From positions 54,426-118,425 of IMG/VR virus record IMGVR_UViG_3300005095_000072: a DNA stretch of 64,000 bases; one strand, 5' to 3'. The position numbers and the translations under genes were made by a program. The notes below the pieces were generated by a model. The model did no database searches, was not told the DNA's origin, and saw only the letters and a list, made by a program, of their open reading frames with translations. The stretch is from a virus. Shown here piece after piece: positions 48,341 to 54,363 of this stretch; positions within the stretch are counted from its first letter, which is position 1; each line of letters begins with the position of its first letter.

Positions 48341-48868
48341 ATGAAGATAATTGCAGGACTAAAAAATTTAGATGGGGTAAGTGGATATACTGTAGTTATA
48401 ACTTTATATTCAGAAACAGAACCTATAAAAGGTGTGATAAATAAAAAAGCAGTAGAAAAACTTTATCAAAAAATAGATATTATTTTAAAAGATAAAATGT
48501 TTAAAGGCATGAAAGTTGGTCGTATTCCTAAACCAAAAGAAAGTAATGGCGAAATAAGGCAAGGTATTATTGTAATAAATATTAAAGGAGTGGGTTCTAG
48601 TGTAGATTTACAGAAAAAAAGTGAAGAATTTATAAATAAACTAAAAACTATTTTAGGGGTGAAATCTCAAAAAGGATACAATAATAGTTTAACTGCTATA
48701 TCTATACATATAAGAAGTTTATATTCAGGATTTGAAAAAAGAGCAGACAAACTTTTTGATAAAAAACCGACAGGATTATATAAGGCAGAAGCTTTTGCAG
48801 GATATATAAAATCTTCTAAGGCTATTATTTTAGATAAAAAGAAGTTTGAAAATATGCTAATAGGTTAA
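48341..48868 (+). CDS. Hypothetical tail-region protein with MKIIAGL leader
   Basis: The 175-residue basic protein starts MKIIAGLKNLDGVSGYTV; the gene at 49438 starts MKIIAGLQSKANIAVYTV, so their N termini share a module. The 5' side is also shared (AAGAACAATGAARATAATTGCAG). The rest is alpha/beta with a LRKKxK-type basic end. Function unknown; may be another leader-carrying accessory protein. Confidence 0.65.
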   Translation: MKIIAGLKNLDGVSGYTVVITLYSETEPIKGVINKKAVEKLYQKIDIILKDKMFKGMKVGRIPKPKESNGEIRQGIIVINIKGVGSSVDLQKKSEEFINKLKTILGVKSQKGYNNSLTAISIHIRSLYSGFEKRADKLFDKKPTGLYKAEAFAGYIKSSKAIILDKKKFENMLIG

Positions 48869-49437: not shown

Positions 49438-49698
49438 ATGAAAATAATTGCAGGGTTACAAAGTAAAGCAAATATTGCAGTTTATACTGTATTTTTTAAA
49501 AACAATGAAGATATGAATAAAGCTTTAAAATTAAATGATAAACTAAAAATAGTTCCTGATAGTGAAATTGAAAATATAGAAAAAGAGTCAAACGATAGAT
49601 TAGCACATTTTGATTTTTCTTCTAAATATGCATCTCAGTTTGATATAGAGATAGCAAAGAAGTTAAAATTAAAAGTGGGTTATGCTCTATCAAAATAA
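49438..49698 (+). CDS. Small hypothetical protein with MKIIAGL leader
   Basis: The 86-residue protein starts MKIIAGLQSKANIAVYTV behind AAAAAGGAAGAACA, a translation-start cassette almost identical to that of the ART-like gene at 32120. The rest is charged and helical. It may be a remnant or small cousin of the gene at 48341. Confidence 0.62.
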   Translation: MKIIAGLQSKANIAVYTVFFKNNEDMNKALKLNDKLKIVPDSEIENIEKESNDRLAHFDFSSKYASQFDIEIAKKLKLKVGYALSK

Positions 49699-49715: not shown

Positions 49716-50588
49716 ATGAGTGAGAATATAAATAGTTCAGACTATATAGTTATTGCTAAGGAAGACTTTCCTACAAAGTTTAGAAGTTATACTCATGTAA
49801 AAGAGATATACACTAGAGGATTATATTATAGTGAAGCAAACACTTTAGCAAAATATATAGGAACTGAATTAGTTTTATATTCTCAATTAGCTAAGTTATA
49901 TGAAAATGTAATTAAGTTCCCTGAAGACTCAAATCTTACTATATATGATATGGAGATAGGAGATTTTATTATAGCTATGATAATCTCTTCTATCTATACT
50001 AAAAAACATTTTGGATGGATACCTAGTGTTGATTGTCCTCATGTGATTAAGAACCCTGAAATAGGTGCTACAATAAAAGATATTGAAAAGCTACAGAATT
50101 TACCTATTTTAAGTGAAGAAGAACAGAAAGAGCTAGAAGAACTTAAAAAGAAATTAGGTATATTACCTGAAGAAGTTCCATGTAAAGGTAAAGTGAAAGA
50201 ATTGATAACTTTAGATGATTTAGATATAGAAACTTTTGTTAATCTTGAGGTACCTAAAAAAGTTATATTGCAAAACGGTAAAATAGAAAAAAACATAAGA
50301 CCTTTAACTGTTAGAGATTTAATTATTTTAAATGAAAAAGATTTTAGTGATATAGAAAAAATAGACAAGAACTTAATGTCTTATGCTTTACTTATAGATG
50401 ATAAGGATATATCTTATAAGGAAAAATACAATATAGTTATAAAAAGCTTATATGGAGAGTTGATAGACTTAATAGAATACAATAAAAGATGTGAGTTACA
50501 TATTAATCCTATATATAAAAGATGCGAGTATTGTAGAAAAGAAGTTAAGCTTAAACTAGGATTGATGTCATTAAAGGCTTATCCCTAA
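49716..50588 (+). CDS. Tail assembly chaperone, short (unshifted) form
   Basis: The 290-residue protein lies just before the tape measure, where myoviruses encode the chaperones that coat it. It has helical N-terminal and middle regions, a Lys/Glu helix (SEEEQKELEELKKKLG) and a Cys-pair near the end (KRCEYCRKEVKLK). Ends at CCC-TAA (50583-50588). A +1 frameshift on this site yields a longer product. ATG 49716 follows AAGGAACTAAAAG. Confidence 0.7.
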   Translation: MSENINSSDYIVIAKEDFPTKFRSYTHVKEIYTRGLYYSEANTLAKYIGTELVLYSQLAKLYENVIKFPEDSNLTIYDMEIGDFIIAMIISSIYTKKHFGWIPSVDCPHVIKNPEIGATIKDIEKLQNLPILSEEEQKELEELKKKLGILPEEVPCKGKVKELITLDDLDIETFVNLEVPKKVILQNGKIEKNIRPLTVRDLIILNEKDFSDIEKIDKNLMSYALLIDDKDISYKEKYNIVIKSLYGELIDLIEYNKRCELHINPIYKRCEYCRKEVKLKLGLMSLKAYP

Positions 50589-50736
50589 CTTTAAGTATTC
50601 AAGTATTATTCAAAACAGATTAACATATATGAAATGGTTTAATATGGACATTTCTGAAAATGCTTTCTATGAAGATGTTATTAATTTATTAGAGCTTGAA
50701 AAAGAAAAACGAGAAAAAGAGAAGAACAAGTCATAA
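49716..50736 (+). CDS. Tail assembly chaperone, long form via +1 frameshift
   Basis: Zero frame stops at TAA 50586-50588. The +1 frame (entered after CCC slips to CCT) is open from 50575 to a TAA at 50734-50736 and adds 49 residues: NFKYSSIIQNRLTYMKWFNM, then a charged helical tail ending KEKNKS. It has no good RBS of its own. In lambda (G/GT), Listeria PSA (CCC-TGA, +1) and others, tail chaperones use just such a shift. The stem or Shine-Dalgarno stimulators are not obvious. Confidence 0.7.
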
Positions 50737-50745
50737 GGACTTATA

Positions 50746-53700
50746 ATGGCAAAGAAAAAACAAGAAGAGTTACTTTATGTGTGGGATAGTGATGGAGGTT
50801 TTTATAGACCTGTTGCACCTAATGATAAAGTTTATTACGATGAAAAAGATATAATAAGAACTATTCCTAAAAACAATACAGTAAATAAAGCTAATCTTTA
50901 TATTAAAGGAAAGGATTATTTTACTGAACCTAAAGTTAATAAAACAAGTAAGACAAATAAGCAAGATAAAGATTTAGTATCCCTAAAAGATTTAAATTTA
51001 TTGAAGAGAAATATAGAGAACTCTGATTTAACTAAAATTGTGAAAGAGTTAAACGAAATATTAAATAAAATTTCTAATGAAGAAATACAGCAAAAAAGTA
51101 AAAAAGCTTTAGATACCTTAAAAGAATTACAAAAAGTAAAAAATAAAAAAGTCTTACCTGATAACCCTAAATATAATGAACTGAAAAAAGAGAAGTTATT
51201 ATTGAACACTAAATTAGTAAATGAATTAACTTCAATTCAAGATTATATAGACAATTTAACAGATAAAATAGAAGGTATAGAACACCGAATAAATAGCTCT
51301 AAGTATATATCTAAAAAATCTAAGAGAAGTTATGAAAGTGTATTAAATCATATTGAGAAAAAAGAAGACTTACAAAAGCTTGAAAAGATAATAACTAAAG
51401 AGTCTCTATCTAGCGAATTGTTGATAAAAATGTTATCTAGTATTAAGCAGGACATAGAAGCTAAAAAAGAAGACTTTGAAAAAGAGGGAATAGATTATCA
51501 AAAAGAATATTTATCTAAGATTGATGAAATAGCAATTAATTATCAAAAAACAGGATTACTAGACACTTCTGAGATAAAGAAGATAATTAAGTCATTAGAC
51601 GAGTCATCTGTAGATGTTAATATTAGAGTAGATATAAAAGATAGTTTAAGAAAACTTGAAGAGAGTACTTACATTAAAACTATTCAAAATTTATTAAGTG
51701 AGCAGGTAGATATTTTTACTAAAACTTTAAGTAAAGATGAAGAGAAAAAGATAGAACCTATTAAAAAAGAATATCAAGCCGGAAGCTTGTCTTTTAAAGA
51801 TTTTACTAAAAAGGTATCTGAGGTAGGGATTAATATAGAACGGCTCTCTAAAGTCATTGACAGTCTTTCTGAAAGTAATAGATTAAAAGATAATCTTATT
51901 CAGTCTTATATGGAGAAAATTAAGGATAATTTTAGTTCTGAAAAAGATAAAAAAGAGTTATTTTACCTCGAAGAGTTATACAGACAGAATAAAATAACTA
52001 CAGAAGAGATAACTAATCAAATAAAAGCTCTCTCTAAAGGGTTAGATAATAAATCCCAAAGTAAAGTAGAAGAGTATCTGTATGAATTAAAGACTACAAA
52101 TGAGGTCTTAGTCGAGAACTCTAAAGAAACTAACCTTGATAAGATAGCAGAACAGAATAAGTTAGAAAGAGAAGAGAAACTTATTGAAACATTAGAAGAT
52201 GCTACTAATTCTTTGAAAGATATAAAAGCAGATAGAAATATTATGGGTAAAGTACTTGGCTCTTCTAGTGCAGAGGAGTTAGGAGAGAATTTAACTGATA
52301 CAGTTTTAGACCAAATAGGTGATGCATTAGATTTAGATTTTTTGAGAGATGAAGATAATCCAAATAAAGGTAAAAGAAGAAAAGGACGAAGAACTACAAG
52401 AGGTAAATCCAAAGGTAGATTTAAGTCTTTAAAAAATATCACTAAAAGATTTGGTAAGAAAGGTAAATTTTTATCTAAGCTTGGTGTGGTGTCTAAGATA
52501 CCAACTGTTGCTAAAGGTGCAGGTTTAATATCTGCAGGAGTAGGGTTATATAATTACACAACTGCTGAAAATGAAGAAGAACAAAAAGATGCAATAGGTA
52601 GTACTGTAGGTAGTTTTATAGGAGGGGGTTTAGGAACTTTCTTTGGACCTGCAGGGACAGTAATTGGAGCTTCTTTAGGTAGTATGGCAGGGAGCTATGT
52701 ATCAGGCTTATTTACAGATATTGATGACTATATACCTAATGATATAAAAGAAAAAGGGGTTATAGATGAATTAATGTACATTGATGAAGTCTTAGAACCT
52801 CAAGTAGAGCAGTCAATTCAAAATAAAGATGGTAGCTTTGAAAAAGATGATTTAGATGAACTTAGAAAATATAGAAAAGAGTTAGAGAGTGAAAAGTTAC
52901 CAAATTATCTTAAAAGTTTAGTTAATAAACAAAACAACTACCAAGATGATAAAGTAAAAGCTAGAGGATTATTGAAAAAGCTATCTAATATACCTGATAA
53001 AAAGTTATACACCGAAATTGCTTCTATTCTTGATAAAGAGTATAAATTAAGTAAAAAAACAGATAGTAAGAACAATATAAAAGTAAAATCTCCTAAGATG
53101 TCTGTTGTAGCTAGTTATGCTTTAGGTGAAGATAAAGAGCTAACTAAAGAACAGAAAGAAGAAGCACAAAAAGGTAATAATACAGATATATTACCTAAGA
53201 TAAAAGATGAAGAACAGAAAAAAGAGAGTAAATCTTGGTTTAGTAGTGCTGTAGATAGCATTAAATCTTTCTTTGGGATAGGTGATGATAAACCTATAAC
53301 AACTTCTATGGATAGTAAATCCACAATGACACCGCAAGAGATGGCTAAGTATGCTCCTAGTTCAAGGATTACTTTACCATCAACTTCTAATTATGGATTT
53401 AACACTAAGCAGTTAATATCTGATTTAAGAAGAGATGAGGGGGTTATACTTCACAAATATAAAGACCATTTAGGCTATGACACTATAGGTGTAGGTCATC
53501 TTATCGATAAAAGAGCTGGTATTCCTCTTAGATATATCATAGGAGAAGATAAAAATAGGATAACTTCAAGTGAAGCAGATTTTATATTGCAGTATGATAT
53601 TAATAGAACAGCTAAATCTTTGTATAGCAGGTTGCCTTGGCTGAAACAACAACCTGAAAATATACAAAGAGATTTATTGAATATGGCTTTTAATATGGGA

Positions 53701-54363
53701 GTACCAGGGCTTTTAGGGTTTAAGAATACATTAAAGAAAATAAAAGAAGGTAAATACACTGAAGCTAGTTACGGATTACAAGATTCTTTATGGTATAAGC
53801 AAGTAGGTAAAAGAGCTAAAAGAATTGTAGCAGATGTTTATTACACTGGTTTAAGATTAGCTAATAAAAAGAAAAACACTACAAATGTTAAAGAACCTAA
53901 TGTTGCTATTGTTAAGGCAGGAGAAAAAACAGAAGCTAATAAAGTTAATACGCCTATAAACACTAAAGTAGCTAACCAAGATAATAATTGGATATTACCT
54001 AAAGATAAAGATAGTTCTAAGGTATCTGATAGTGTTGATATACCGGAAAGTAAGACTAGAATTATAGATGGATTGTTAGAGCAAGGTATTAGTAACCCTG
54101 TAACCTTGTCTCTAGGTGCAGATGTATCTGTAGAGCAGGTTAATAAATATTTAGAAAATAGAGGTAAAGTTAAATCTAGTAAATATGAAACAACTGGAGA
54201 TAAAGTTATTACAGCTAAAAACAACGAAGATAAATCAAGTAGTAAAGATAAAGTAGATAGTTCAAATAATACAGTCGTTAATAACACAACTGTATTTACT
54301 TCTAGTGGAGATGATTTTAGAATATCTAATCATGGTTTGGAGATTATGGCTAATGTAATATAG
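50746..54363 (+). CDS. Tape measure protein with C-terminal T4-type lysozyme domain
   Basis: The 1205-residue protein is long and helical up to about 560, has a Gly/Ala-rich hydrophobic zone (about 578-655; VGSFIGGGLGTFFGPAGTVIG), then at about 890-1030 a GH24 lysozyme. E898, D907 and T913 have exactly the spacing of T4 lysozyme E11/D20/T26. The tape measure sets tail length, and the hydrophobic zone probably inserts in the inner membrane. The lysozyme would open peptidoglycan during ejection. ATG 50746 follows AAGGACTTATA. Confidence 0.88.
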   Translation: MAKKKQEELLYVWDSDGGFYRPVAPNDKVYYDEKDIIRTIPKNNTVNKANLYIKGKDYFTEPKVNKTSKTNKQDKDLVSLKDLNLLKRNIENSDLTKIVKELNEILNKISNEEIQQKSKKALDTLKELQKVKNKKVLPDNPKYNELKKEKLLLNTKLVNELTSIQDYIDNLTDKIEGIEHRINSSKYISKKSKRSYESVLNHIEKKEDLQKLEKIITKESLSSELLIKMLSSIKQDIEAKKEDFEKEGIDYQKEYLSKIDEIAINYQKTGLLDTSEIKKIIKSLDESSVDVNIRVDIKDSLRKLEESTYIKTIQNLLSEQVDIFTKTLSKDEEKKIEPIKKEYQAGSLSFKDFTKKVSEVGINIERLSKVIDSLSESNRLKDNLIQSYMEKIKDNFSSEKDKKELFYLEELYRQNKITTEEITNQIKALSKGLDNKSQSKVEEYLYELKTTNEVLVENSKETNLDKIAEQNKLEREEKLIETLEDATNSLKDIKADRNIMGKVLGSSSAEELGENLTDTVLDQIGDALDLDFLRDEDNPNKGKRRKGRRTTRGKSKGRFKSLKNITKRFGKKGKFLSKLGVVSKIPTVAKGAGLISAGVGLYNYTTAENEEEQKDAIGSTVGSFIGGGLGTFFGPAGTVIGASLGSMAGSYVSGLFTDIDDYIPNDIKEKGVIDELMYIDEVLEPQVEQSIQNKDGSFEKDDLDELRKYRKELESEKLPNYLKSLVNKQNNYQDDKVKARGLLKKLSNIPDKKLYTEIASILDKEYKLSKKTDSKNNIKVKSPKMSVVASYALGEDKELTKEQKEEAQKGNNTDILPKIKDEEQKKESKSWFSSAVDSIKSFFGIGDDKPITTSMDSKSTMTPQEMAKYAPSSRITLPSTSNYGFNTKQLISDLRRDEGVILHKYKDHLGYDTIGVGHLIDKRAGIPLRYIIGEDKNRITSSEADFILQYDINRTAKSLYSRLPWLKQQPENIQRDLLNMAFNMGVPGLLGFKNTLKKIKEGKYTEASYGLQDSLWYKQVGKRAKRIVADVYYTGLRLANKKKNTTNVKEPNVAIVKAGEKTEANKVNTPINTKVANQDNNWILPKDKDSSKVSDSVDIPESKTRIIDGLLEQGISNPVTLSLGADVSVEQVNKYLENRGKVKSSKYETTGDKVITAKNNEDKSSSKDKVDSSNNTVVNNTTVFTSSGDDFRISNHGLEIMANVI

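Follow-up and report, generated by a model that had tools for sequence, protein, structure and literature searches.

A conserved proline-stop site points to programmed +1 frameshifting in a gp26/gp51-like tail assembly chaperone gene

Does the tail assembly chaperone gene found in front of a viral tape-measure gene end where its reading frame stops, or is it continued in the +1 frame up to the tape measure? The gene lies in a stretch of 64,000 nucleotides, here called the window, which is part of the 118,425-base IMG/VR virus record IMGVR_UViG_3300005095_000072; all coordinates are window positions. Reading of the sequence and comparison with relatives lead us to conclude that positions 49716-50736 very probably form one recoded gene with a programmed +1 shift at a proline codon followed by a stop codon. 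The features concerned are the following.

49716 to 50588, plus strand: core of the tail assembly chaperone, 0-frame product of 290 aa (open reading frame with the RBS TAAGGA, homologues with the same gene order, hhalign, Foldseek)
50572 to 50574, plus strand: upstream stop codon TAA of the +1 frame (sequence)
50574 to 50579, plus strand: weak Shine-Dalgarno-like AAGGCT (duplex -3.2 kcal/mol, codon-usage-weighted P 0.26)
50580 to 50589, plus strand: putative shift site TAT CCC TAA C (sequence; Tyr-Pro-stop conserved in five lineages)
50587 to 50736, plus strand: +1-frame tail of 49 aa plus stop, predicted helical, a GT-like extension (conserved across lineages; low-confidence helices in the model)
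50746 to 54363, plus strand: tape-measure protein of 1205 aa with a phage lysozyme domain (open reading frame and domain match)

The 290-residue frame ends in TAT CCC TAA, exactly as the initial annotation had stated; the codon in front is GCT and the stop codon lies at 50586-50588. Its further claim of a +1 frame open from 50575 to the TAA at 50734-50736 and adding 49 residues was equally exact, the last upstream stop occupying 50572-50574 and the residues past the shift being encoded at 50587-50733. The +1 frame closes 9 nt upstream of the tape-measure ATG at 50746, and the tape-measure RBS overlaps the 3' end of the tail. Over the 43 codons past the chaperone stop there are 6 stops in the 0 frame and 3 in the -1 frame, and under a first-order Markov model of the region a 49-codon opening in the +1 frame has a probability of 0.008. 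The codon in front of the stop is itself unusual: proline is the last codon of the chaperone alone among the 71 open reading frames of the window, and CCC is rare there (16 of 547 proline codons, 3%). CCC followed by a stop, with the +1 frame open beyond it, is the arrangement that marks Pro-stop shifts of the SPP1/PSA type. No tRNA genes were found within the window.

Searching annotated phages with tblastn, we found that only Yersinia YerA41, GN1 and Cobetia Carin-5 matched the chaperone (28-31% identity); their homologues all end exactly at query residue 290, leaving about 140-150 nt unannotated before the tape measure. IMG/VR supplied two further lineages, contigs L006 and L007, in both of which the tblastn matches to core and tail lie in different frames, that of the tail being +1 relative to that of the core; genome contigs, plasmids and further viral scans yielded no relatives beyond these two. 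The four homologue lineages (YerA41/GN1, Carin-5, L006 and L007) are 33-37% identical to the window protein, and in all five lineages, the window included, Tyr-Pro-stop falls in the same alignment column while the stop itself varies between TAA, TAG and TGA:

Window: GCT TAT CCC TAA C
L006: GGG TAT CCC TAA C
YerA41 and GN1: AGT TAT CCC TAG C
L007: GCT TAC CCC TAG T
Carin-5: GGG TAC CCT TGA C

The slip codon is CCC in four of the five lineages and CCT in Carin-5; the base 3' of the stop is C in four, among them the window, and T in L007. Each of the four relatives encodes a homologous tail of 43-45 residues reaching the tape-measure gene, and the 43-residue alignment of the tails is free of gaps and has invariant Y, F, I, Y and L positions. 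The +1 openings of these relatives have probabilities of 0.017-0.036 each under the first-order Markov model. Past the chaperone stop, the +1 frame is free of stops in all five lineages, against 3-9 stops per lineage in the remaining frames; the +1 tails had a mean pairwise BLOSUM62 score of +70.8, compared with -35 ± 4.6 for shuffled residues. The other two frames scored -20 and -17, a z of about 10 over their own shuffles, because codons of related DNA correlate in every frame; what discriminates the +1 frame in these alignments is therefore the lack of stops together with its far higher score. The conservation check proposed in the initial annotation was thus positive and supports its interpretation of a programmed +1 shift. 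On the evidence of these alignments the shift site and the tail are real and conserved, and a slippery site and tail protein kept across five lineages are as expected of a G/GT-type gene. None of the annotated relative records carries a frameshift annotation, and in all annotated records examined the tail was either overlooked or split off as a stray ORF.

These comparisons also bear on whether the two frames are separated simply by a frame-disrupting indel, either a sequencing or assembly error or the mark of a decaying gene. A one-base change would join the frames and the virus record that holds the window is of metagenomic origin, but the same break occurs at the same codon, with differing stops, in five lineages from separate sequencing projects, and the independently sequenced YerA41 and GN1 agree with each other. 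The shared break refutes an indel as a general explanation, and for the window itself we regard it as extremely unlikely. Somewhat less remote, though still very improbable, is production of the tail by another kind of recoding: slippage during transcription, a -2 shift, or a change of frame at an earlier point within the 12-nt overlap. An opening that reaches back to 50575 formally allows the frame to be changed elsewhere; there is, however, no homopolymer run suited to RNA polymerase slippage, nothing in the overlap other than Pro-stop is both slippery and conserved and, as we read the sequence, a -2 shift would lack a pairing partner at TAT CCC.

The alternative to which we give most room, while still holding it improbable, is that the +1 frame constitutes a small gene of its own, translated from an internal ATG or by reinitiation past the chaperone stop. 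The initial annotation had named an in-frame ATG near 50632 as the possible start; such an ATG exists, its true position being 50629, and another is found at 50644. Annotated cyanophage relatives, discussed below, do carry a separate small 'gp51' ORF. Neither window ATG has an RBS, however (anti-SD duplexes of +0.4 and -2.7 kcal/mol, respectively, compared with -3.6 to -9.3 kcal/mol for 14 neighbouring starts), which also bears out the claim that the tail runs up to the tape-measure start without an RBS of its own. The tails share no conserved start codon, and that of L006 has no Met at all; conservation of the tail sets in within a few residues of the stop codon, before any ATG. A separate gene would moreover require some other reason for the proline codon at the stop.

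The position of the gene is likewise that of a recoded chaperone. In the window, the tail sheath gene (a match to PHROG 23, E 4e-46) is followed by a tube-like gene and, after two or three small genes, by the chaperone and the tape measure with its lysozyme domain. The order sheath-tube-chaperone-tape measure is common to the annotated relatives, so that the position before the tape measure on which the initial annotation relied was upheld in both. A chaperone directly 5' of the tape measure within the tail module, with an out-of-frame tail that has no RBS and ends at the tape-measure start, is the G/GT-type layout. The YerA41 homologue, 187c, is annotated as hypothetical while its neighbours are annotated as structural, which fits, if weakly, with absence of the chaperone from the virion. 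As to the small genes of the window, those at 48341-48868 and 49438-49698 have similar starts, MKIIAGLKNLDGVSGYTVVI and MKIIAGLQSKANIAVYTVFF, a likeness that suggests a partial duplication; YerA41 has just one gene between tube and chaperone. The lysozyme domain of the window tape measure (50746-54363) is PF00959 (3.4e-9), compared with the chitosanase-like fold annotated in the YerA41 and Carin-5 tape measures.

Bacterial +1 shifts may be stimulated by a Shine-Dalgarno-like run upstream of the slip codon, with a known spacing rule of 3 nt (PMC5009743). Immediately 5' of the Tyr codon stands the hexamer AGGGGG in Carin-5, CGGGGG in L006 and AGGAGT in YerA41, with 16S anti-SD duplexes of -8.7, -8.0 and -6.9 kcal/mol and codon-usage-weighted P values of 0.0019, 0.023 and 0.018, respectively. 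In Carin-5 and L006 the run keeps the 3-nt distance to the slip codon, and in YerA41 it is in register; lying about 150 nt upstream of the following start codon, these runs are not the RBS of the next gene. For the SD-like AAGGCT, significance was reached neither in the window (-3.2 kcal/mol, P 0.26) nor in L007 (P 0.30). Of the elements of a prfB-like site, the putative stimulator 3 nt before the slip codon is thus borne out in Carin-5 and L006 but not in the window, which does have the C after the stop (TAA C). Downstream RNA structure stood out only in YerA41 (z of -2.9), with nothing notable in the other lineages (z of 0 to +0.6).

From this arrangement we infer that the shift occurs, how efficient it is and what the two forms do, as follows. 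The majority of ribosomes would terminate at the TAA at 50586 and release the 290-aa chaperone. A minority would be held up by the slow stop in the A site while peptidyl-tRNA(Pro) is still paired with CCC; the tRNA(Pro) could then re-pair one base forward on CCT (CCU in the mRNA) and translation would continue in the +1 frame, giving a product of 339 aa that includes the charged helical tail of 49 aa. A point against this is that in Carin-5 re-pairing at CCT TGA (CCU to CUU) is poorer than at CCC TAA. If the two forms act as lambda gpG and gpGT do, coating of the tape-measure protein would fall to the short form, and the long one, made rarely, would join the tape measure to tail tube or hub subunits.

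To which family the chaperone belongs was less evident from the window alone. The protein carries a CxxC...CxxC zinc-ribbon-like element and had no match in Pfam or PHROGs, including no direct match to the PF12322 HMM. Its Carin-5 homologue matched PHROG 150 at 3.6e-4 and PF12322 at 0.068, and hhalign joined the window family to six chaperones of other large myophages (98.9%, E 3.5e-17), three of which match T4_baseplate (PF12322), the best at 9.2e-7. A structure model of the 339-aa fusion (mean pLDDT of 72.6, low in the tail) matched predicted T4-like baseplate hub assembly proteins (Foldseek, BFVD, E to 1e-6) and matched no solved structure. The charged helical tail of the initial annotation appears in the model as two predicted helices, at 294-307 and 314-338 of the fusion, both of low confidence. 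Through the intermediates and the modelled fold, we assign the window chaperone as a distant member of the T4 gp26/gp51 superfamily (T4_baseplate, PF12322).

Out-of-frame tails are found elsewhere in this superfamily. In eight of nine further chaperone lineages (Vibrio GR7B, GR11A, Va2, 150E35-1 and 1.031.O, Pseudomonas Peetri, Escherichia EP_H11/IME392 and Rhizobium RHph_TM; Thermus phiLo is not counted among them) we found a single in-frame TTT GGC, located 2-7 codons ahead of the stop, from which the +1 frame is open for 32-63 residues, to or near the next gene. Acinetobacter Ab1-TPeters has a +1-open tail without TTTGGC. Some of the TTT GGC tails are annotated as ORFs of their own (GR11A_00114, VP150E351_P0023, NVP1031O_169 and EVB96_365). 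These chaperones, and the gp26-like genes of cyanophage-type phages and their relatives considered below, are located as follows.

TTT GGC chaperones: L029:13596, L031:12640, L032:11793, L036:11326, L037:11113, L041:2278, L042:2584, L044:2182
gp26-like genes: L135:701-1414 (as an example from L058-L137), L056:371-1269, L057:453-1339

In T4, PF12322 covers residues 1-206 of the 208 of gp26 and 1-201 of the 249 of gp51, and the two proteins are homologous over this core (hhalign 98.5%); gp51 is therefore the core plus about 48 residues. In KBS-M-1A and S-SCSM1, both cyanophages, the ORF after a gp26-like gene has 45-54 aa and is annotated as 'baseplate hub assembly catalyst' (gp51). The small ORF of S-SCSM1 is homologous to the gp51 tail (PHROG 634, 2.6e-24; hhalign E 3.6e-10, reached by 0 of 60 shuffles). 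KBS-M-1A and a Desulfovibrio phage carry an in-frame T_TTT_TTC with the gp51-like tail in the -1 frame, S-SCSM1 being exceptional in having its tail in the +1 frame. Among 80 related cyanophage-type IMG/VR contigs (L058-L137), which were picked by similarity and are not independent, T_TTT_TTC lies exactly 10 nt before the stop of the gp26-like gene in all 80; in 79 of them a tail of 38 residues or more follows in full in the -1 frame, the 80th running off the contig end. Apparently, then, the cyanophage-type gp26-like gene undergoes a -1 programmed frameshift unrecognised so far, and the 'short gp51' would be the tail of gp26. An earlier paper (PMC3037559) gives cyanophage gp51 only about 20% of its usual length, what is kept being the C-terminal part; its text does not mention frameshifting, and we found no description of frameshifting in gp26/gp51-like chaperones in the open-licence literature. 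Comparison of the window tail with the gp51 tail or with those of the UUUGGC group gave no signal above column-shuffled controls; the tails are therefore compared by position and length only.

Recoding is thus found within the T4 gp26/gp51 chaperone superfamily, while the 2016 review describes the tail chaperone shift as widely conserved, nearly universally so in long-tailed phages, 'except T4' (PMC5009743). We lean towards the reading that a short and a long chaperone are a general property of this superfamily, reached by different routes: in the window clade by a +1 shift at Pro-stop with a prfB-like cassette, in several large myophages by a +1-frame tail from a UUUGGC site, in cyanophage-type T4 relatives by a -1 shift at U_UUU_UUC, and in T4 itself by gene duplication, with gp26 as the short form and gp51 as the long one. 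This would also explain the shortness of cyanophage gp51 (about 20% of the usual length, PMC3037559). The idea that gp26 and gp51 correspond to G and GT draws on the common core, on where the tails lie and how long they are, and on the cyanophage example, and suggests that T4 swapped recoding for duplication; if true, T4 would be no real exception to the G/GT rule.

Among known systems, lambda gpG/gpGT, the Xu, Hendrix and Duda type, yields a short and an extended chaperone by a -1 shift at a heptamer. The window gene resembles it in lying just 5' of the tape measure, in being one gene with two putative forms and in having a tail frame that extends to the tape-measure start; it differs in that the shift would be +1 at Pro-stop and in that its chaperone is assigned to the T4 gp26/gp51 superfamily. 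The E. coli prfB site reads AGGGGG TAT CTT TGA C, and Carin-5, with AGGGGG TAC CCT TGA C, has the same succession of SD-like run, Tyr, slip codon, stop and C. Unlike the prfB motif, CTT_TGA_C with an upstream SD (PMC3711429), the chaperone sites have CCC or CCT as slip codon, any of the stop codons and, in the window, a weak SD, and release-factor autoregulation is not implied for the chaperone. The hexamer of the window is identical to the +1 site CCCUAA of SPP1 gp17.1*, a tail tube protein, and the direction is the same; the SPP1 chaperone itself has a putative -1 shift (PMC6316719). The initial annotation had likened the site to that of PSA, and PSA and other Listeria phages indeed shift +1 at a slippery proline codon before a stop, CCC_UGA, but in the tail shaft (major tail protein) gene tsh and not in a chaperone (PMC5009743). 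At E. coli pheL, CCC_UGA gives a 15% shift (PMC6316719; PMC5009743). The SPP1 and PSA shifts add a surface domain to a major tail or tube protein, whereas that of the window would add a helical tail to a non-structural chaperone. T4 comes closest in its products, gp26 stopping at the end of the core and gp51 being about 48 residues longer, like the two predicted products of the window, with the difference that T4 has two paralogous genes where the window has what is very probably one recoded gene.
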